From Heliocidaris erythrogramma (Eukaryota; Echinodermata; Echinoidea; Camarodonta; Echinometridae), in contig CM046870.1 of NCBI GenBank assembly GCA_025617745.1, positions 11,646,410 through 11,710,409 of the forward strand: 64,000 bases of DNA. Direction: 5' to 3'. A program made the position numbers and the translations under genes. The notes beneath the pieces were generated by a model. The model had not been told where the DNA came from, searched no databases, and worked only from the letters and a program-made list of their open reading frames with translations. Positions 4,921-55,552 of the stretch are shown here, one piece after another. Position 1 is the first letter of the stretch; every line of letters starts with the position of its first letter.

Positions 4921-5634
4921 CTCGACCTCTTCAGTGATGTTTTGAATGTCCGCATAAAGATCGCGTTGTTTATTGTCTATGGGGGTCTCGTCTTTTCTCT
5001 GCATCTGTGTGGTTAAGTTCAAGTCGTCTCTCTCTCTTATCATTGTTCGCTCGAATCTCACCATTCTTCCTTTGAATTTCATCTTTGAGTATTTGAATTT
5101 CATTTTGGAGTTTTCGATTCATGTCATCGATCTCTGGTTGATTTTTGTAGCATCCTCCTCTTCCCTGTCTTGGTCTGTTTTTGTAGCCTCTTGAATTGCC
5201 GAATCAACTTCGTGTTTTACGGCTTGTAGATGGGCGTCGGTATCTTTTCTACACTGAAGAATCTGGTCTCCATACACTCGACATGACTTCAACTTGTCCT
5301 TCGCCTTTCCTTTCAAAACGTTCAGCTTTGCTTTATTTTCCATGATAGCGCCCTCTATGTGCTGTCGCACGCAAGGCTTATCATGGTGTTCTATCATCGC
5401 GCATAAATAACACAAAGCTACCCCGTGAGTTTTACAATACATATCAATATCTTTATCATGTTCCTCACAGTATAAATTGGGCCCACTTGTTCTTGCTTTA
5501 CCAATGCATCCCTCTTTGGAGGCGCAGTCACCGCAGAGCTTCTTCTTCTCCTTCACGTAGTACGTCACATCTGTGATCGCCTTACAGTCGTCTCCTTCGC
5601 ACGTGCCTTCAGCAGGGCTGAATTCAGACGCCAT
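4921..5634 (-). pseudogene. TRIM-like B-box protein, copy A (frameshifted, 3' part in gap)
   Basis: Starting at ATG 5634 the protein begins MASEFSPAEG. Residues about 11-50 form a Cys-rich zinc module (C-x4-C ... C-x2-C ... C). Residues about 52-95 form a B-box 2 with its ligands intact: C-x2-H, C-x2-H, C-x2-C and a His pair. A coiled coil follows. There is no RING finger, as in many invertebrate B-box proteins. In frame, a TGA stops the protein at 5119. The next-but-one frame carries clear coiled-coil sequence (EIDDMNRKLQNEIQ...) from about 5135 to 5035, after which coding sense returns to the original frame (DDLNLTTQMQRKDE...) up to the gap. So one base was lost near 5136 and one gained in the GA run near 5030. 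It may be a pseudogene, or the errors may be in the assembly. TRIM proteins of this plan act in ubiquitin-linked or immune signalling, but function here is unproven. Confidence 0.85.
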
Positions 5635-6200
5635 GCTGATCAGAGTATTGACCTGTAGAATTCAAGGAGAGGGATGCAATACATAGAAAATGAGAGAGAG
5701 GGAGTATAGGAAGAGATTTACAGAGTAGCGAGACAGAGCCGATATACAGACAGACAAACAGAGACGGGGGGGGGGGGGGGATAGAAGGGGGACAGGGAAG
5801 GACAGAGTGAGAGGGAAGGCAAAAAACGGACTTTTGTAGAGCGGGATAGCCATCATAATAATATATAGAAAATACAGTTCCTTTCAGGTAGCAATCTTTC
5901 ATAATTATGTAAATAAAGAAAAAAAAAAGACTTATATTACTGTTCCATTCACATTAAAACATTTATAATTTGTGTTGTTAAAAAAACAAATGCTGAAGTC
6001 CAAGTGTTGTGCATTATCATCAGCGATATAATGCAAATGACAACATAAAAATAATTTTGGGGAAATGTCAAAAATTTGTACATTAACCCTGTCGTTTTTC
6101 TTTAGAATAACATTGATATCAACTTCATGCAATCTGCTGGGTTTCATCATAATAATATAATACTCATCATACTCATAATACTCATTATATTATAAGAGAG
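5635..6200. other. Upstream region of TRIM copy A; no further exon recognised
   Basis: Contains GA-rich low-complexity DNA (5670-5760) and a G run at 5766-5780, then AT-rich sequence. The noncoding first exon expected here could not be placed. Confidence 0.5.
5653..5658 (-). promoter_or_regulatory. Probable 3' splice site in the 5' UTR of TRIM copy A
   Basis: On the minus strand CTACAG is followed by GTCAATACTCTGATCAGC and then the ATG. Copy B has CTGCAG and GTCAATACTGATCAGC at the same place, and upstream sequence diverges at this point. That pattern fits an intron ending 18 nt before the start codon. Confidence 0.55.
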
Positions 6201-33138: not shown

Positions 33139-35148
33139 TGGGGCGCCAAGTGTAAAGTGGCTATTCCGTTACAATATTGCCTCATTTCGTGACAAAATTC
33201 ACTCAAAACTGTCTTCTGTTACAAAATTATTGAACAACGGTTCATTTTGTTACAAAATGAATTTGGAAAAGTAATTCTGTAACAAAATGGGGGGGGGGGG
33301 GGGGAGAAAGAAAAGGAAAAGGAAAAAATAGGGGAGGAAAACTTTAAAATATAAAACATATGAATATTATTTTTTTTTCTTAAAAAATTAAGTTTGATTA
33401 TGTTTGCCACTACTTCATTTTGTACTTGTACTTCCATACCCTTATGGTTATTGGTTAAAAAATAATATTAGTTACACCCTGCTTGTGGCCGAATGGAATA
33501 TGCAACCAGAACGTAGATATTTCCCGTATTCCGTGAGAACAAGCAGGGTGCAACGATTTTATCCCTTAAAGTGTACACCTATAATTTATTGGTCAAGAAT
33601 ACGGAATTATCTCTCAGACAAATTGACCAATCAGATTACGTATAATAATAATAATCGTATTAAAATATATATGAATCGATCACAACTTGTTCTTTGATTA
33701 TTTCGTGATTTTTAGGTCCTGAAATAATATTTTCTGGTCAATTTCTGATTGAAAATTACTGAAATAAGCCCTAGCAATCTTGAAAGTCCCTCTTTATTAT
33801 CTCTTGGCTGCTCTGGGATTTGTTTTCGGCTGTTGGCTGCTGTTGGCTGTTGTTGGCGGTTGTTGGCTGTTGTTGGCTGTTGTGGGTAACGATTACAAAA
33901 TAAAGAGTAACGATTACAAATGCAAGAGAAACGATTACAAAATGAAAATGGACAAAATGATTTTGTTAATTCTATTTTGTAACAGAATGATTTTGTTATA
34001 CGAAATGAAAATGGACAAAATCATTTGGTCCTATCCATTTTGTAACAGAATGATTTTGTCATACGAAATGAAAATGGACAAAATGATTTTGTTAATTCTA
34101 TTTTGTAACAGAATGATTCTGTTACAAAATGAAAATGAACAAAATCATTTTGTCCTGTCTATTTTGTAACAAAATCATTTTGTTACAAAATAGAATGGAC
34201 AAAATCATTTTGTCCTATCCATTTTGTAACAGAATGAGTTTGTCATACGAAATGAAAATGGACAAAATGATTTTGTTAATTCTATTTTGTAATCAGAATG
34301 ATTCTGTTACAAAATGAAAATGAACAAAATAATTTTGTCCTGTCTATTTTGTAACAAAATGATTTTGTTACAAAATAGAATGGACAAAATTATTTTGTCC
34401 TATCCATTTTGTAACAGAATGATTTTGTCATACGAAATGAAAATGGACAAAATGATTTTGTTAATTCTATTTTGTAACAGAATGATTTTGTTATACGAAA
34501 TGAAAATGGACAAAATCATTTTGTCCTATCCATTTTGTAACAGAATGATTTTGTCATACGAAATGAAAATGGACAAAATGATTTTGTTAATTCTATTTTG
34601 TAACAGAATGATTTTGTTATACGAAATGAAATACGACAAAATCACTTTGTCCTTTCAATTTTGTAACAGAATGATTCTGTTACAAAATGAAAATGAACAA
34701 AATCATTTTGTCCTGTCTATTTTGTAACAAAATGATTTTGTTACAAAATAGAATGGACAAAATTATTTTGTCCTATCCATTTTGTAACAGAATGATTTTG
34801 TCATACGAAATGAAATGGACAAAATTATTTTGTCCTGTCAATTTTGTAACAAAATGATTTTGTTACAAAATAGAATGGACAAAATTATTTTGTCCTGTCA
34901 ATTTTGTAACAGAATGATTTCGTTACAAAATAAAATGGAAGTGTGAATGATTTTGTCACGAAATAAATTTTTGTTACAGAATGGAAGTGGTCAGAATCAT
35001 TTTGTTACAGAATTACTTTTCCAAATTCATTTTGTAACAAAATGAACCGTTGTTCAATAATTTTGTAACAGAAGACAGTTTTGAGTGAATTTTGTCACGA
35101 AATGAGGCAATATTGTAACGGAATAGCCACTTTACACTTGGCGCCCCA
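33139..35148. mobile_element. 2-kb TA-flanked element with 150-bp terminal inverted repeats
   Basis: TGGGGCGCCAAGTGTAAAGT at 33139 is mirrored by ACTTTACACTTGGCGCCCCA ending at 35148. The arms match for about 150 bp. TA flanks both sides. The interior holds a G run (33289-33304), a short mirrored segment (CACCCTGCTTGT ... ACAAGCAGGGTG, 33475-33552) and a large palindromic tandem array. No transposase. A TA duplication suggests the Tc1/mariner group, but the end sequence is not one I recognise. Confidence 0.85.
33940..35000. repeat. Palindromic satellite array in the 2-kb element
   Basis: Units of about 61-63 bp built on 'ATTTTGTAACAGAATGATTT' and 'GGACAAAATGATTTTGT'. The marker 'GATTTTGTTAATTCTATTTT' recurs at spacings of about 127 and 184, which are two and three units: higher-order organisation. 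'GACAAAATCATTTTGTC' is itself a palindrome. The Met/Leu/Asn-rich frames here are repeat artefacts. Confidence 0.9.
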
Positions 35149-35150
35149 TA

Positions 35151-35394
35151 CTATCGATGCGCATAAATAACATAAAGCTACGCCATGTGTTTTCGAATAC
35201 AATTTGATTTCTTCATCGTGTATTTCACAATATAGATTGGGCCCACCCTTTCTTACTTTCCCGATGCATCCCTCTTTGGAGGCGCAGTTCGTGCAGAGCT
35301 TCTTCCTCTCCTTCACGTAGTACGTCACATCTGTAGTCGCCTTACAGTCGTCTCCTTCACATGTGCCTTCAGCAGAGCTGAATTCAGACGCCAT
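35151..35394 (-). pseudogene. TRIM-like protein copy B, N-terminal part
   Basis: Starts MASEFSSAEGTCEGDD at 35394, closely matching copy A (5634). The N-terminal zinc module is complete. In the B-box one zinc ligand is changed: copy A reads MYCKTH, copy B reads LYSKTH (Cys to Ser). Homology stops right after 'CYLCA', at the border of the 2-kb element. Beyond the element the sequence is the C-terminal part, so the rest of the B-box, the coiled coil and the middle of the protein are deleted. Confidence 0.85.
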
Positions 35395-36074
35395 GCTGAT
35401 CAGTATTGACCTGCAGAATATAACCAACATCATAATTACATTAATAGAAGGGAGGATGAAAGGGAAAGAAAAAACAGAGAGAGAGAGAGAGACGTATACA
35501 ACGGCGAGTGGCATAGAAACAGAATAAATGTTAAATAGAGGGGGAATTTCTCCATAACAATATCAAATACAAGCAAAATGAAAGAAAACGAAACATCATT
35601 TTCCCTATGCGACCCTACACCCTCCCTCGTAACGCAGCCCCTTAAACACAATGATCACTGTTAGGCGTATCATTACTTGGTACACGTTAGCAAAGAAAGT
35701 CGAGAGATTTTGTGAAATTATAGGTACTATTTAGTTCTGATTATGTTCACAGTGAACTAAAGAAACAGAAATATTCAGACGTTATCACTACTTCATAATT
35801 ATCATCGCATCATCGATGTCTAAATGATTTTTACTTTCGCTATCAGTGTCACTATCATTTTCTCATCATCATCGTTCCCGTCGTAGTGAACATCATAATT
35901 TTGACCATCGTCTGTTAATACAAGCATAACTCATATACAAGAAGAGAACAATGTAAACAGAGACAAGGTGTTTTAATATGTTTTTTTTCTTTGAAAGGAT
36001 GCGAAAGATAATGAAACTATGGAGGGGGGGGGGGGGGGTGTAAGAAAGGGTCGGTGAAGAGAAGACAGGGACTA

Positions 36075-45455: not shown

Positions 45456-45904
45456 TATTTTCAAATAAAAGGTCATGAAGATCTATATGAAATGAACATA
45501 GATAGGCCTACATTGATCGAAAGACTGTCGAAAAGTGACAAAATTGCCAATTTGCAAGGAAAGACAGCAATTCAATAGTTTTCATTATGTACACAGTAGA
45601 TCTATAGGTCTAGGCAGAAATTCTTGCCCTGTCGATGGCATATTTTTCAGGGCGCTAGCTCTGCAAAAAAGTTGTTGAGCCAAATCACAAAATGTTTTCA
45701 ATGGTCTCGAAAAATACCATACAGTACGGTGTACGTTTATTTAAAAAAAATCTTAATCGTTATCGTTATTGGACAAATGTGACATAGGCCTATGCTTAAA
45801 CCTTTGTGAATTTCCTACTTTCATAACATAACATGAATACGAATGAATCTTCTTATTGTGTTTTCGTTTTTACAACTGTCGTTTATCTATATAAAAAAGT
45901 ACAG

Positions 45905-46769
45905 TTCAGTCTTCTGGATGTCATCGGGAGTGAGGTTCTTAGCAGTGACACTACCCTATCATCAGATGACACCAGTCTCCGAGGAACCGATCCCCAAGAC
46001 TCCATTCCTGAGTCCGAACGAGATGGAATTCATTCTTGCACACCAAGCCTAAGTTCCGATCAGGTTTGTCCCAAATTGGTGGTGTTTCCTAAAGAATCCC
46101 TTGATCCGCAAAAAAGGCAAACTGGGTTGAATTCAAAAGCTTGTAGTGGCGATTTGAAAACACTTGAAGCATCTAAGACGGATGGCAATAAAATCATCAC
46201 ACCAATGGGCATTGGTGAAAAGCCACAAGAGACGCCCGTTGAAGACCACACAAAATCTTCTACCAATAAGTACTCTGACGAGATTGAGCTTGAGCGCATT
46301 TCTGGTCCACGTAGTACTGCTGGAAAAGATATAGCTAATTCGAGTATCGATCAACGAAACACCAAAGAGAAAATAGAGTCAAGATCCAATTTAAAAGAGG
46401 GAGCAGTTAATCAGCTGGAAGATCACTCGGGGCAAAAGTCAAAGAAGAGTACAGACCAGCAGAGTGAGGAATGCTGGCGTCAGGATCAAGGAGATGAAAC
46501 TAACGTAACGTTTTTGGAAAGCGCCTGCCGAAATAAGGATGACGGAAATCTTACCTCCTGCAACATGGAAGGGAAGGATAATCCGACTGCGTGCAGACGA
46601 CATGGCGACAAAGTGACTGATGTGAAAGATGAAAAGGGCGCCAAGCAGATGAAGGATGCAGATCAGACGGAAAAGGTGACGATGCCGTCATCACGCAGCA
46701 CTATCGGCCGTGTCATAATGATAGACGGCATCAAGTTTGTGGCAGTGACGTGTCTGCAGCCACCCAAGG
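45905..46769 (+). CDS. Large unknown gene, exon 2
   Basis: The acceptor is AAAAAAGTACAG at 45904. The donor is AAGG|GTAAGA at 46769/46770, a strong consensus, giving phase 1. Residues about 12-300 are rich in Ser, Thr, Asp, Glu and Lys and look disordered (for example LSSDTTLSSDDTSLRGTD). The exon ends in a more ordered segment, 'GRVIMIDGIKFVAVTCLQPP', leading into the Cys finger of exon 3. If the donor is not used, the frame runs on to TGA at 46802-46804, with AATAAA just after (46809-46814). So a short isoform of about 310 residues is possible by intron retention and early polyadenylation. Confidence 0.8.
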
Positions 46770-46808
46770 GTAAGAAGGAATTCCTGATTATAAACGAGGA
46801 ATGAATAT

Positions 46809-48066: not shown

Positions 48067-48192
48067 CTGGTGTATGGGTTAATTATATCCACAGGGAGTG
48101 GCTCGACGTAATTAAAAGGACGCCTCGTATCAGCCGGGCTTATGATGTTGGAGTAAAGTGTCTGATCTTCTTTCACTTTTAATGACTTGCAG

Positions 48193-49974
48193 GCCCCAAG
48201 AGACCCAAGAGATGGGAGAGATGCCTGTGTTATGTCGAAAGTTACTTATTCAGGTGCAAGAGGTGTAAAGGGGGAAAACGTCACGAAATCTAAACCACCA
48301 TCCCGACATGTCGAGACACTCGAAAGCATTTATGTTGATAGTTTGGTCCTTACAAAGGTCGACAAATCATGGGATCCTAGAAAAATGGAAAATCTACGTA
48401 ACATCAAAAAACAAGGTACCTATCGGAGTCTGACCCCACCCCTTTACCGACAGCTTGGTGACTCTAAGCTCAGCATGTCGAAATCAGAAACGTTAGTTGT
48501 GGAAAAGTCTCAAAGATCCAACGAGCAACTGACGTCAACATCCTGTGACATGAAAACGATCAACTCGGAATGCACTCGAGAAGAGATGGCACATGTCGCG
48601 AGACAAAGTGGAAGAAGGAAGAAGAAAACTGATCGGAAAACATGGTCGAGTCAACGAGAAGGGTCTCCTGCGCAAGTTCACATAACTCCCACAGGCGATT
48701 TGACGAAAAAGAATAGAGAGGATTTATTCAAAGGACAGGGTAGAAGGTTTAGCTTTCCTCCTCTCTCTTCAACCGTTTGGAAACGAGATAATCTTAACAG
48801 TATGATCCGTACGATTGGAAATAAGGAAAGACTTGATGAAAGTGTGCAAAATATTTCGTCTTCAAGCGGGAAATCTCCCATCAAAAGATGCACGCTGCAG
48901 CAAGGTCATCAACATGAAGGACCCTCAAGACATTCAAACGGAGGGGAAGAAAAGGCAACAGTTAATGTCTCAAACAAACCTGTTCGCAACCATGATAAAT
49001 CGACAAGAAGCAGCTCATCTAGATCATATACAAAGCTGTGGAAAAAGTATGGGAATAAATACCATGAATACAACTCACCTGAGCCGTCGTCGAAGGGACT
49101 AGTAGGATCCAACAAAACGGACACCTCTAGACGAAGCGTGGATGCCGGAATGAATCTGAATCAGTTTCACGAACGCAGAAGATCTCTCTTCAAGACTATG
49201 TTCCCCTTTCAAGACACTCTCGGACAGTCCAAAGGTATTCCCGATTCCGGGAACTCTCCGGGAGAGGAGACCCCTTCTGAGACAAGTGTTGTCAGAGATT
49301 GCGGCGACCTCTCCAAGTCGGCCACTGACAGAGTGGCACCTGGGTCACAAACCCGGATCTTAGTCGTTTCCAAAACGGGTAGTGAAGCGAAGGTCAGTGG
49401 TCATTCCAGTAGCAAAGTGTCACACAGGATAAAGTACAACGACAAACAGAACGGAAATAAACCAAACTCGAACTGGACAAATCTATTTCAGTTCATGATG
49501 GAAGCAGCCGATCGGGAAGAATCAGAAAGAAGGAAAGAATCTAACAATTGCGATGAGCGCCAGAGAGCGACCGCAAAGAGATCTTCTGCCAACGATCACG
49601 AGGTCTCATGCAAGACAGAGGCCACCAGTATGGCATGTCCTGAAGCTAGACTGTCGGGGGATGCAACGGAGGTGGTGAGGACACAAGACAATCAAAACTG
49701 TCAGGAGAAAAGGAAGAAAAAGAAGAAAAAGAAGAAGAAACGGAAGAGGAAGAAAGAGAAAAAGTCACGTCAGAGCGATGTTCAAGATGTCGGCATAAAC
49801 AAAGACCTTGTCAAGCAGCACCATCATGACCATGACACCCCAATCCATGGCAGCCGGAAAGGGAAGGACAAGAAAAGACGGAGCAGACCGGAATTGGAAA
49901 GCCCCAGCTTCCCTGGAATCAAAGATGACCCTAATGTATGGCCTAAATGGAAAGGCGACGGCAAGAAAAGGGGG
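48193..49974 (+). CDS. Large unknown gene, exon 4 (basic, disordered)
   Basis: The acceptor TGACTTGCAG ends at 48192. 594 codons in phase 0 encode a strongly basic, Ser/Lys/Arg-rich chain without membrane segments or repeats: for example 'RQSGRRKKKTDRKTWSSQRE', 'FHERRRSLFKTMFPFQDTLG', and 'NWTNLFQFMMEAADREESER', which may be a short helix. A run of about 22 Lys/Arg lies at about residues 872-893 and could act as a nuclear signal. It ends at '...WPKWKGDGKKRG'. The proposed donor, GGGGG|GTCTGC, is weak. Coding sense is convincing over the full length; the function is unknown. With the finger in exon 3 a nuclear role is plausible but unproven. Confidence 0.85.
49951..49971 (+). repeat. 21-bp direct repeat, left copy
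   Basis: AAAGGCGACG, one base (G here, C in the partner), then CAAGAAAAGG. The partner lies at 54355-54375 across the fold-back element. It encodes KGDGKKR here and KGDAKKR there. Best read as a target-site duplication of coding sequence. Confidence 0.85.
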
Positions 49975-49983
49975 GTCTGCTCG

Positions 49984-50570
49984 CTAGTCATAAGGACCGC
50001 TATTCATAAAAAAAAATTATTCATAAGGACCGCTATTCATAATAAGACATAAGGGTTGCTATTCATAAGGGTAATTATTCATAAGGACTGCCATTCATAA
50101 TAAGACATAAGGATCGCTATTCATAATATGGAAAGAGGGTCGCTATTCATAATACCAAATCAGGGTCGTTAATCATAAGGGTCCCTATTCATAATACGAA
50201 AATAGGGTCGCTATTCATAAAGGTCGCTATTCATAAAGGTCGCTATTCATAAAGGTCAATATTCATAAGGGTCGCTATTCATAATCACAGAATAGGGTCG
50301 CTATTCATAATAACATAAGAGGGTCGCTATTCATAATCGGAGAAGAGGGTCGCTATTCATAATCACAAAAGAGGGTCGCTATTCATAATCACATAAGAGG
50401 GTCGCTATTCATAATCACAAAAGAGGGTCGCTATTCATAATCACAGAAGAGGGTCGCTATTCATAATCGGAGAAGAGGGTCGCTATTCATAATCACTAAA
50501 GAGGGTCGCTGTTCATAATCACAGAAGAGGGTCGCTATTCATAATCAAAGAAGAGGGTTGTCATTTAAAT
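49984..50570 (+). repeat. 26-bp satellite array, left arm
   Basis: The regular part (50270-50560) has a strict 26-bp period, with variable bases mainly in the AATCACAGAAGA part. The outer part is less regular. Confidence 0.95.
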
Positions 50571-52424
50571 CAAATAAGAAAGGGATATGGAGGAAGGACA
50601 ACCCAAGGCCCAACGGTATTTTATTTAAGAAAGCTCTATACAATGCATTTCCGGTTTTTGTCAAATATATCCCTATTTTCTAAAAAAGTGAACTATATTT
50701 ATCAATACTCCCCACACTTTGAAAGGCGCTTTGCCAGTGCCTTAATAATTAAAAAAACGATGTCTAATCCATACATCTACGTGGGAGGAGAGGACCCCCC
50801 CCCCCCCCCCCCCCCCATCCACACACCCAGATACACGCAGACATGTGCTTTGTTTTGAATATTGGAGTGTCATTGCCACGCCTATTTTAGAGTTAGGGGA
50901 AGTACTGGTTGTCTATTTATGTACCCTTTTCGTTCTTTCTTTTTTCTTTTTCCTCCTCTCTCTCTCTCTCTCTCTTCCTCTTTCCTTCCTTTTCCAGCTT
51001 CTTGTTTCTTTGTTTCTGCATGGTTTTCTGCAAGACATGGACCTCTTGCTTGTACTCTTATTTCCTTTTGTATACTGTTTACGTAGATTTATCATGGAAT
51101 AATTATTGTCATGCCTCTTTCTCAATGTGTTAATATATTTTTGATACATGTGCATTAATATATTTTTCTGTATTCATTCTTATCCATCACGTGCAATTTT
51201 TTATGCTTGAAATTGGGAAATCAGATTGTAACACAATTTGTATCCTTGTTGCATGACAATAAATGAATCACTGAATCATCCAGATCCTCCCGTTTCTCAA
51301 CTCCTGTGAAGACCTAATCCTTAGCCTTTATCTCAAGTTCCAGCAATCGTCCATTTGGGGGGAGATGAGGGGAAAGTTGGGCGGGGGGAGGGGGGGGGGG
51401 GGGGGGATTCTCGTAGGGGGTATTTGTCCTGGAGATTAGTTGTAGGGGTAGTTGTCCGGATACGGGCTTAGAAATTGCCGTGAAAAATTTGTTTTCGTTT
51501 TTATTTTGGGGTGGGATAGTAATATTTTCATAATACGTGATTTTAGTAACGTACAATTCATTGGCATCTACCGTTTTTACAGTGTGCCCCTGTTTATGGG
51601 CATGGATGGGAATGAAGTATGCCCTCCCACGGTTGGGACTTTCAAATTTCCCCGAGTTAAAAATCACCTCTCAGAGCATTTGAGTGCATGTTCTTTCATG
51701 GTAATTACTAACTTATTTATTTCATTATATTCTTTGAAATCTTTATTTCGGTCTCCCTTATCATAATCTTAACAAAAATCATGACAAAAATTATCACCAT
51801 GTTGATCGATCGTGATCCTATGAATAATAATCATCATGGTCATCCTCCTCCTCCTCCTGATCATATTATTTGATCATGTCATTTATTGAAGGTGAATTAT
51901 GGCGGGGGGATGATACAAGCCAATCCTACAGGCCACCCCCCCCCCCCCCCATTACAAGGGCATGCGCATCATGTATTTTCTATGTTTGTTTGATCTTCAT
52001 TCAATTCTATCAAATTTATTCCCATTTCTTTATACTGTAAAGCATATTGGTTGTATGTAAACAACCACAGGACCAACGGCTTTAACCCTAACAGAGCCGG
52101 GTTATTTTAGACCCATCTCACAGCCGGGGGTGGGGGGCTGATTCCGCCCCCTAAGATCTCGGCCGTCCACCGCGCATTCGCAACGAAAATCGGCACACAC
52201 GTCGCCGACCACGTAATCTACAAAACTGTATAGTCAATTTCTCCGAAAAATGTAATAACTAATTAATTATGCTAATTTATGCATGAAATTAATTTGCTCT
52301 AATTAATTAATTAAAGCCCCAAAACTGCTAATTTTTGGTATAGAGACTCTTTGTCAGATTCTGATCAAATAAACCGGTAAAAATCCTTTTTTTCTTATGT
52401 TTTTTATTGTTTTTTCGATGGAAT
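50571..52424. other. Core of the fold-back element, left part
   Basis: Includes a C run (50797-50815), a CT-rich stretch (50945-50995) and a LINE- or retroposon-like 3' end 'TGACAATAAATGAATCACTGAATC' in two phrases at 51255-51278. G runs at 51380-51407, a C run at 51937-51950. No gene recognised. Confidence 0.5.
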
Positions 52425-52465
52425 TTGTCGGCGACACTATTTTAATCCTAAACAACATAAAATTA

Positions 52466-52651
52466 AACGAAGAAGCTTGACTGGGGAGGAATTTTTAATT
52501 TGTAAACAAATCTTTCGGCATATTACTCCCAGTGTTTTTTCTGACTTGTGTTTTTCATTACAGATCGAGCATACGATCTTTAACACTGGGAGTAATATGC
52601 CGAAAGATTTGTTTACAAATTAAAAATTCCTCCCCAGTCAAGCTTCTTCGT
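52466..52651. repeat. Perfect 72-bp inverted repeat built from SINE sequence
   Basis: 52466-52537 and 52580-52651 are exact or nearly exact reverse complements ('GAAGCTTGACTGGGGAGGAA', 'GCATATTACTCCCAGTGTT'). The spacer is 'TTTTCTGACTTGTG...' of about 42 bp. The right arm and spacer match the body of the SINE at 52750-52912. Confidence 0.9.
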
Positions 52652-52749
52652 TTACTAACCATTGTCTACGGCGGACCGTTTGAATATTAATGAGTCAGAA
52701 AGAAGAGGATCTTGGGTATTTGATTCTAGTTCGTCGTGACTTGGCCGTG

Positions 52750-52912
52750 AACCAGAATAGCCTGGTGGTTAAGTCGCTGCCCGGCAAGCAGTAGATGACA
52801 GGTTCGAATCCCGCTGGTTCCAATTTTTTCTGACTTGTGTTTTTTCATTACAGATCGAGCATACGATCTTTAACACTGGGAGTAATATGCCGAAAGATTT
52901 GTTTACAAACAT
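52750..52912 (+). mobile_element. tRNA-derived SINE
   Basis: A tRNA-like head (52750-52822): GAACCAG pairs with CTGGTTC as an acceptor stem; A box TAGCCTGGTGG; B box GGTTCGAATCC. The expected T stem is broken (GACAGG against CCCGC), so it is not a working tRNA. The body 'TTTTCTGACTTGTG ... GATCGAGCATACGATCTT' ends near 52912. A second body copy without a head is at 52538-52620. Confidence 0.7.
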
Positions 52913-53019
52913 AAAATTAATTGTTTTTAAACAGTAAAAGTAAAAATAATGAAACATTTATGAATTTTAGCTGGAAAGCTTGCCAATTTGGTGATGAGAA
53001 CTCTTTGCGTGCTCCCCAG

Positions 53020-53400
53020 GGGGATGGATGCAGGGAGGGGGAGATTCCCCCATAGAGTTGTTAGGGGTATGTAACTATATGGTTTCCCCCCTCCCGTGCG
53101 AAAGCTCTGACGTTTTATAGCAAATCTGAGATAAAGATAATGGCTCGTCGCAATACTGCACTGTATGTAACAGGGGTGGGTGCATGGAGAGGGGAGGGGG
53201 GGGGGGGGGGGTCCCTCAGACGTTTTGTAGCAAATTTGAGAGAAAGATAAAGGCTCGTACATTTAGCACCTTCTTTTAGGCGGAAAGTTAGTTCGACACC
53301 CACGCAATGCTGCACTGCATGTATCAGGGGTGGATGCATGGATGGGGAATTACTTCCCCCTCCCCACGGGAAGCGCGAATACTGACGCAAATTTCGTAGC
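53020..53400. repeat. Tandem 'ACAGGGGTGGGTGCATGGAG' units
   Basis: Three degenerate units like those at 15.9-16.2 kb, with phrases 'GACGTTTTATAGCAAAT', 'GAGAAAGATAA' and 'GGCGGAAAGTTA'. G run at 53198-53211. Confidence 0.65.
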
Positions 53401-53624
53401 TTTTATCGTTCTCTTCCTCCGCTTCCTCATGCTTTTTCGCTCTCGCCTGTTTTTAAGGGGTGTATTTGTTTCATCGCCCGTCCCCATATTGGCTCGACAC
53501 AGCCGTGGGGTGTCTACATCCCATCCAATATTATTATTTTTGTTCTTTCATATTTGAGTGTTCATTGAACAATGAAAATCATATTATAATATTTGACAAA
53601 TAATCCTAACCCTAACCTATTCTT

Positions 53625-54354
53625 CGATTATGAACAGCGCCCCTCTTTCGTGATTGTGAATAGCGACCCTCTTCTTTGATTATGATTAGCGACCCTCATC
53701 TTCGATTATGAATAGCGACCCTCATCTGTGATTATGAATAGCGACCCTCTACTTCGATTATGAATAGCGACCCTCTTCTCTGATTATGAATAGCGACCCT
53801 CTTCTTTGATTATGAATAGCGACCCTCTTCTGTGATTATGAATAGCGACCCTCTTCTTCGATTATGAATAGCGACCCTCTTCTGTGATTATGAATAGCGA
53901 CCCTCTTCTTTGATTATGAATAGCGACCCTCTTCTGTGATTATGAATAGCGACCCTCTTCTCCGATTATGAATAGCGACCCTTATGAATATTGACCTTTA
54001 TGAATAGCGACCCTTATGAATATTGACCTTTATGAATAGCGACCCTTATGATTAACGACCCCGATTTGGTATTATGAATAGCGACCCTGTATCTGTATTA
54101 TGTATAGCGACCCTTATGACTTATTATGAATAGCGGCCCTTATGAGTAATGACCCTTTTCTTCGATTATGAATAGCGACCCTCTTCTCATATTATGAATA
54201 GCAATCCTTATGAATAATGCTCCTTATGAGTTTATGAATAGTGACCCCCTTTTCGCTTTATGAATAGCGACCCTACAGGTATAGGAAATTACATGTTATG
54301 ACTAGCGGTCCTTATGAGCCACTGATCCTTATGACTAGCGGTCCTTATGACTAG
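53625..54354 (-). repeat. 26-bp satellite array, right arm
   Basis: The plus strand reads 'GATTATGAATAGCGACCCTC' repeatedly, the reverse complement of the left arm, and ends in GACTAG directly before the right 21-bp repeat. Confidence 0.95.
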
Positions 54355-54504
54355 AAAGGCGACGCCAAGAAAAGGATGGACATGATGACAAGCATTGACA
54401 GTCTGATTTGGACCATGAAAAACGAGTTCGAGCCCAACATCGGACAGTCTCTCACTGCTAGAGCAAATGTCAACCTTTCTGCGAATTTGATTAATTCATC
54501 ATAA
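54355..54504 (+). CDS. Large unknown gene, exon 5 (C terminus)
   Basis: Begins with the right copy of the 21-bp repeat. Reads KGDAKKRMDMMTSIDSLIW..., then a polar tail ending NLSANLINSS and TAA (54502-54504): 49 residues in phase 0. The acceptor is GACTAG with no pyrimidine tract. If the 4.4-kb element is a simple insertion, the ancestral exon ran straight from exon 4 into this sequence with a single KGDxKKR. Confidence 0.75.
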   Translation, partial: KGDAKKRMDMMTSIDSLIWTMKNEFEPNIGQSLTARANVNLSANLINSS

Positions 54505-55552
54505 ACGAAAGATCTATTTCGCCTATTTCGCCTACCTAAAATTACGTCCTCTGGCAGACTGACTTGGCTGAGGACAACATTTGTGACATCATACAATGTA
54601 AATGAAAGGTCGTACATGACTTTGGTATAATACTATAGCATAGGGATCGAAATGTGTGACGTCATAATTTACAGAGATACGTCACATCGAACGTGAAAAA
54701 ATAGTAAAAGGATCACGGCATTTGTGACGTCATAAAAGTATCATCGGTGGACTGTACTGATGTTAACATGGACCGCCACTTTGTAACGTCATAAAGGAAA
54801 GTTCATTGGGCATATACTGGCTATTCGTTTGGGGGTAATGTAACGCGGGGTTTCTCACCCAACTAGAGAGGATACCAGGGTTGCATGGTGATCCGACATT
54901 TGCTACTGCGCCCTTTGCATTAGCCCTTATTTTATCAGAGATATATAGTACGGTTACCATTTGGGTTTGAGGTTGAAGTTTAGGTTTGTGTTTGGCCCGG
55001 GGTTGAAGCAACGAAAATGAGAAAATTCGGGAGTATAGGAAATTGTCTGCGGGGTAAGTGTCCCCGCCTCCCCGGAGAATGTGTCGTACAACTTCGGGGG
55101 TAGCAGACCTATGAAATCAAAACATGAATCTTTAGGGTACCTTAACCCTCTCCAAGAGTAGTGATTTGATTAACCAGTGACAGGAAAGACATTTTACATG
55201 TACTTTGTACTTGCATATTTATACTCTACATGTATTTCCATCCTCGATAATGACGTGAAATGAAGTTTAAAAAAAAAGAAAGAAGAAAATGAATAGATTT
55301 AAAAAAAATGTTTCAATGGTCTAAAAGTTTTAGATTTGTATGGCATTTGAGCGAAAACCATGCCTAATGGTTTCGAATAAAAGATGAAATTCAACTATTC
55401 GGCTCACCACGCATATTACTGGAGGCCTTCTTTTTAATTTTTTTTTTATTATTTTGGTTATTTTTTGCATGTAAGTACATCAACATCAACTGTATTCTTA
55501 GTTTTGATCGCAACCACGATATTCAAATTCCCCAGTATTTTTCATTTTTACC
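54505..55552. other. Probable 3' UTR and downstream DNA of the large gene
   Basis: No coding sense. AATAAA at 55376-55381 is a possible polyadenylation signal. An AT-rich stretch follows to 55470. Confidence 0.45.

Follow-up and report, generated by a model that had tools for sequence, protein, structure and literature searches.

How does a fold-back transposon come to stand within an open reading frame with the same 21 bp of coding-looking sequence on either side, and what becomes of the gene that receives it? The locus lies in the sea urchin Heliocidaris erythrogramma (assembly GCA_025617745.1, contig CM046870.1, positions 11,646,410 to 11,710,409 of the forward strand), and the window analysed here is this whole stretch of 64,000 nucleotides, counted from its first letter. 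The mitochondrial contig of the genome encodes a COI that translates sensibly under the echinoderm code (table 9) and is echinoid-like in sequence. An earlier note on the window described a satellite-like fold-back element that splits a coding exon, read the repeated 21 bp as the trace of target duplication and suggested that the element might serve as a new, introner-like intron, with gene disruption as the alternative. Judged from the other copies in the genome, the 21-bp repeat is best read as a target duplication of 8-9 bp joined to a 12-nt transposon tip derived from the flank. Taken as a whole, our reading is that a young, non-autonomous fold-back element resembling the TU elements inserted here, had its tip patched from the flank and truncated the C-terminus of the encoded protein; we hold this to be probably, though by no means securely, correct. 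The element and its borders are made up as follows.

49951-49962, plus strand: 12 nt of left flank, AAAGGCGACGGC, matching the altered right tip at 11 of 12 positions
49963-49971, plus strand: left copy of the target duplication, AAGAAAAGG, of 8 or 9 bp, a run of G leaving its exact edge ambiguous
49972-50565, plus strand: left arm (inner edge approximate), beginning with the family's left tip GGGGTCTGCTCGCTAGTCATAAGGACCGC and continuing in 16- and 26-bp repeat units
50566-53609, no strand assigned: middle domain; in 17 of 19 other copies the largest piece that aligns with it is 94.8-98.4% identical
53610-54354, plus strand: right arm (inner edge approximate), of 26- and 16-bp units, with the terminus TTATGACTAG
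54355-54366, plus strand: altered right tip AAAGGCGACGCC, replacing the family's CGAGGTTACCCC by comparison with other copies
54367-54375, plus strand: right copy of the target duplication, AAGAAAAGG

The element, 4.4 kb long from about position 49972, does split a coding-looking frame as the earlier note had it, and its arms, built of tandem 26-bp and 16-bp units, are complementary, with inverted repeats of 355 bp at 93% identity. Nor is there doubt about the segment common to both borders with one mismatch: 49951-49971 (AAAGGCGACGGCAAGAAAAGG) and 54355-54375 (AAAGGCGACGCCAAGAAAAGG) are identical at 20 of 21 positions, and a repeat search lists them as a 22-nt pair at 95%. What fails is its interpretation as a target duplication, given that other copies are flanked by about 8 bp and that flank-like sequence stands here in place of the 12-nt right tip.

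A search for other copies and their flanking duplications, the check that the earlier note had proposed, found with at most 2 mismatches 1,592 left and 4,840 right tips across the genome (1.06 Gb in 26 contigs), and a reversed-pattern control gave 0 for each. At the 39 other best-scoring places the match starts at window positions 49961-49972, mostly at 49972. Twenty copies (L009-L028) were fetched and 19 are readable at both ends, the right end of L023 being absent from the 10 kb fetched. These 19 begin with GGGGTCTGCTCGCTAGTCATAAGG and end in ...TTATGACTAGCGAGGTTACCCC, and over its first 34 nt the left tip is identical in all of them. Target duplications of about 8 bp flank 18 of the 19, with 14 at a fixed 8-bp register (0-1 mismatch) and 4 after a 1-nt shift; random flank pairings match in 0 of 342. 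The remaining copy, L027, has both tips intact and lacks a target duplication, and is possibly a recombinant between two insertions. Allowing 1 mismatch, the right tip is the canonical CGAGGTTACCCC in 39 copies, namely 19 of the 20 fetched and all 20 whose right ends were read in addition, and the sub-terminal motif GACTAG is common to the right ends read. The further right ends are a non-random sample, drawn from the copies that match the window's right arm best, out of 939 candidates of which 40 were scored. Five of them are identical to the window throughout the 105 nt leading to GACTAG, and all five then carry exactly CGAGGTTACCCC.

In the window the right arm is likewise canonical through GACTAG (to 54354), after which come AAAGGCGACGCC and then AAGAAAAGG. 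Counted by hand, GACTAG and the duplication are still 12 nt apart; the flank departs from the family tip at 6 of the 12 positions, and at these the window has the flank base at 5 and the transposon C at position 11. When left flank and tip are compared in the same register in the 19 other copies, 0-5 of the 12 positions match. Independent point mutations were rejected as the source of the altered tip, five substitutions in 12 nt, at the rate at which the window copy differs from the family majority, having a probability of about 4 x 10^-9. A subfamily with a AGAGGTTACCCC tip (L035/L036; longer stretches from L055/L056) was considered as the source of the first tip base and set aside, as it is overall less similar to the window copy than, for example, L026 and L021.

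Several features of the family stand beside these results. Tips of the right type (GGGGTAACC) are three times as numerous as those of the left type (GGGGTCTGC), and two short elements, L057 and L058 (about 1.6 and 2.1 kb), have a right-type tip at both ends. L010 and L013 align with the window copy in short pieces only, at 78-90%. A nested repeat block at 52440-52960 of the middle domain contains a 78-nt unit that recurs 290 nt apart, and the block is unaligned in 8 of 17 close copies; a stretch within it carries features resembling the A and B boxes of a tRNA-derived short interspersed element, and both the tRNA scan and the Rfam scan of the window are empty.

How would such a border arise? 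We propose that a fold-back DNA transposon entered what is likely the last coding exon, the target being cut with a stagger of about 8 bp, as the comparison of copies indicates. While the right end was being repaired, whether at the time of insertion or following a one-ended cut, the 12-nt tip would have been overwritten by a short copy of the left flank, the patch being guided by the identical AAGAAAAGG duplications and by the similarity of flank and tip at 6 of 12 positions; patched tip and duplication together would then appear as a 21-bp duplication. Passages of PMC4423477, a study of rice transposons, report that insertions are generally precise and that their excisions often leave filler DNA, which makes the patch better suited to a one-ended cut than to insertion.

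The one other account of the border with appreciable weight, possible yet on balance unlikely, is that an in-frame tandem repeat of 21 bp existed beforehand, that the element inserted at the border of the repeat with an 8-bp duplication, and that the right tip and the right duplication were later lost in one deletion of about 20 bp. The region is lysine-rich, a related K-G-x-x-K-K-R unit (77%) sits 93 nt upstream of the border, and the G/C difference between the two units would need no special event. Small right-end deletions also occur in the family. When aberrant right ends were sought at exact left tips (C1 up to 47.96 Mb, among the matches listed), an exact right tip lay within 6.3 kb in the correct orientation for 13 of 15; of the two exceptions, L059 has apparently lost the final CCCC of the tip, 4 nt, and about 2 nt of the duplication, which makes the deletion step plausible, and in L060 the right end was not found within 6 kb. 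Such a history nevertheless requires a near-perfect tandem repeat precisely where the element inserted, as well as a deletion that by chance preserves the 12-nt distance from GACTAG to AAGAAAAGG, and Tandem Repeats Finder shows no other 21-bp repeat in the exon. We therefore favour, with moderate conviction, a patch over a pre-existing repeat. Besides the end deletion in L059 and the upstream unit, which leaves room for a native tandem repeat, other points weigh against the patch and what we derive from it: the ancestral sequence at the site is a reconstruction, a patch running on continuously from the duplication would be expected to alter position 11 as well, and the truncation of the protein is deduced from sequence. 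A comparable flank patch is found in none of the copies read, L059 and L060 included, so the process lacks a second case. As for an element that makes target duplications of 21-22 bp, or moves by some unusual mechanism, the two 21-bp borders would speak for it; it would need a right tip short of 12 nt, it is contradicted by 18 of 19 copies, whose duplications are of about 8 bp, and we give it practically no credence, a 21-bp target duplication being ruled out by the family comparison.

On the structural features tested, the element belongs with the fold-back transposons: it has long inverted arms of short tandem repeats, dispersed copies, constant tips and short target duplications. No transposase is recognisable among the open reading frames of L010, L013, L016 and L020 (at least 90 amino acids) or of L057 and L058 (at least 80 amino acids), and a Pfam search, confined to 7 open reading frames of L010 and L013, gave no more than weak matches (E 0.09-0.1). 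The 8-bp target duplication has the length typical of the hAT superfamily, and this length fits the P and Merlin types equally. The TU elements of Liebermann et al. (1983) reportedly have an 8-bp target duplication and outer-domain units of about 15 bp. The present element would share with them the sea-urchin host, the long inverted arms of short tandem repeats, a variable middle without evident coding capacity and the 8-bp duplication, whereas its units are of 16 and 26 bp; the likeness is one of described features. Sea-urchin fold-backs are also cited in PMC4079207. Tetris of Drosophila virilis is described as a fold-back element that contains tandem repeats internally, has no apparent coding capacity and makes duplications of 8-10 bp, and Galileo, of the P superfamily, as one with long, internally repetitive inverted repeats. 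Both differ from the present element in host, and they too are alike by description.

The insertion appears to be recent. In an alignment of window positions 50560-52440 with 13 of the 19 copies, from which gapped columns and columns 3 or fewer from a gap were removed, the window copy differs from the majority of the 14 copies at 5 of 1,087 columns (0.46%), the range among copies being 0.09-1.20%. Heterozygosity in other sea urchins is reported as 2.11% for Diadema setosum and about 3-5% for Lytechinus variegatus, Arbacia lixula and Strongylocentrotus purpuratus. With a divergence of 0.46% set against a heterozygosity of 2.1-5%, the insertion is likely younger than typical allelic divergence, if these species are a guide to the host, and the insertion allele may be polymorphic.

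What has the insertion done to the gene? The parts of the frame and its ends are these.

48166-50049, plus strand: stop-free frame of 628 codons, lysine-rich, 602 of them before the insertion
50050-50052, plus strand: in-frame TAA within the element, reached if the transcript retains the element
54376-54504, plus strand: downstream part of the frame, 42 codons and TAA, coding-like in codon usage
55376-55381, plus strand: AATAAA, the inferred original 3' end of the gene

The frame reads ...WKGDGKKRG, enters the element directly and stops at the TAA. Searched against the genome for a paralog or an empty site, the exon protein finds its own locus only (1 match among 20 candidates), and neither the exon frame nor the downstream part has a Pfam match; a frame further upstream, 45827-46801, has a single sub-threshold one (E 0.089). 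A search with the 3' flank returned itself and five partial matches of 71-82%, none of them touching the coding part, as all fall between query positions 532 and 662. Scored by the codon usage of this gene, the 42 codons beyond the right border reach 5.3 bits; among 5,480 overlapping background windows, 554 lack a stop and 41 of those reach as high a score. The AATAAA at 55376 is likely the original 3' end, and the gene, a single-copy one, probably received the insertion in its last coding exon. The transcript would most likely retain the element or terminate at an internal poly(A) signal, AATAAA being present within the element at 51258 in the sense of the gene and again at 52368. The protein would thereby lose 42 C-terminal residues and gain 26 encoded by the element, and we consider this exchange of C-termini, together with a new 3' end, the most probable outcome. 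Gene disruption, which the earlier note had kept as its alternative, is a better reading than the intron.

Other features of the window lie apart from these events. The 3' flank holds at 54579-54794 a spaced TGTGACGTCATAA-like motif in four copies (direct repeat family D11). Two similar open frames on the minus strand, 5122-5661 and 35098-35562, show B-box zinc-finger matches below the Pfam cut-off, and 33935-34939 is a tandem array of 1 kb with 63-bp units.

A question remains, could the element be spliced out after all? Three dinucleotides matter here.

49975-49976, plus strand: GT donor of the earlier note, GGG/GTCTGC, lying in the family's left tip
49936-49937, plus strand: alternative GT, AAT/GTATGG, with a better score and in frame with the AG at 54353
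54353-54354, plus strand: AG acceptor of the earlier note, within the family's GACTAG and predicted to be paired in the base of the hairpin

Splicing would join 49974 (or 49935) to 54355 and carry translation on to 54504, an outcome that we regard as improbable. The GT at 49975 and the AG at 54353-54354 do join in phase 0, adding 24 nt, up to the stop ending at 54504, and the downstream codons that would be rejoined are coding-like. Among 45 pairs (3 GT in 49900-50052 by 15 AG in 54200-54420), 6 hold the frame to that stop; the best in-frame pair uses GT 49936, and the pair of the earlier note ranks second. Donor and acceptor are indeed weak, at -3.1 and -3.7 bits by generic weights, and in the window 36% of the 3,363 GT and 27% of the 3,354 AG equal or exceed these scores. 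A further AG lies 16 nt upstream of the acceptor, the two edges when folded through a short linker are predicted to pair GT and AG in the base of the stem, and the AATAAA at 51258 could end the transcript before the acceptor. Both GT and AG are stock tip sequence of the family, which argues against adaptation of this copy. Splicing of an ordinary copy with its 8-bp duplication would add 3 + 12 + 8 = 23 nt and shift the frame, here made 24 by an extra G or a 9-bp duplication, and this argues against a built-in intron design. By frame length and visual inspection, no convincing coding frame is broken by any of the 19 other copies, which are few against the size of the family; where the sequences on either side of a copy are joined, the longest runs without a stop (169 codons in L018, 151 in L019) look non-coding. 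The insertion is, moreover, too young for purifying selection on the frame to show. Of the introner-like proposal, then, the in-phase GT...AG stands, and the intron itself is weakly supported. A more specific version seems to us a longer shot still: the copied flank would have set a second in-frame KGDxKKR past the AG, the repair patch thereby supplying the exon-side sequence of a new acceptor, and removal of 49936-54354 (or 49975-54354) would restore a near-normal protein, an intron in the making.

Precedents for such an outcome exist. In the Introners, according to passages of PMC9860276, a DNA element stands in an exon with an in-frame GT...AG, as here, and one Aureococcus family adds 12 bp to the transcript, made of 4 bp and an 8-bp duplication. 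The present element differs in its 4.4 kb with a long hairpin, in the frameshift that an ordinary copy would cause and in an intron role that is hypothetical. Good splice signals and many intron-forming copies would be expected of an Introner family; both signals here fall below neutral by the same generic weights, and coding-exon recurrence is absent from the sample. The maize element Ds1 has an 8-bp duplication, inserts in exons and carries potential splice signals in its tip, all of which the window copy shares. For Ds1, of about 400 bp, splicing as an intron is demonstrated, to go by titles in the reference list of PMC3260210, whereas here it is hypothetical, for an element of 4.4 kb.

The locus suggests that when the end of a transposon is repaired with a short patch, the result can pass for an unusually long target duplication, and that such a patch can place coding sequence beside an AG borne by the transposon. 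The fold-back family itself, very young and represented by thousands of tips in this sea urchin, offers a handle on how often such insertions into exons are tolerated, truncate proteins or become introns.

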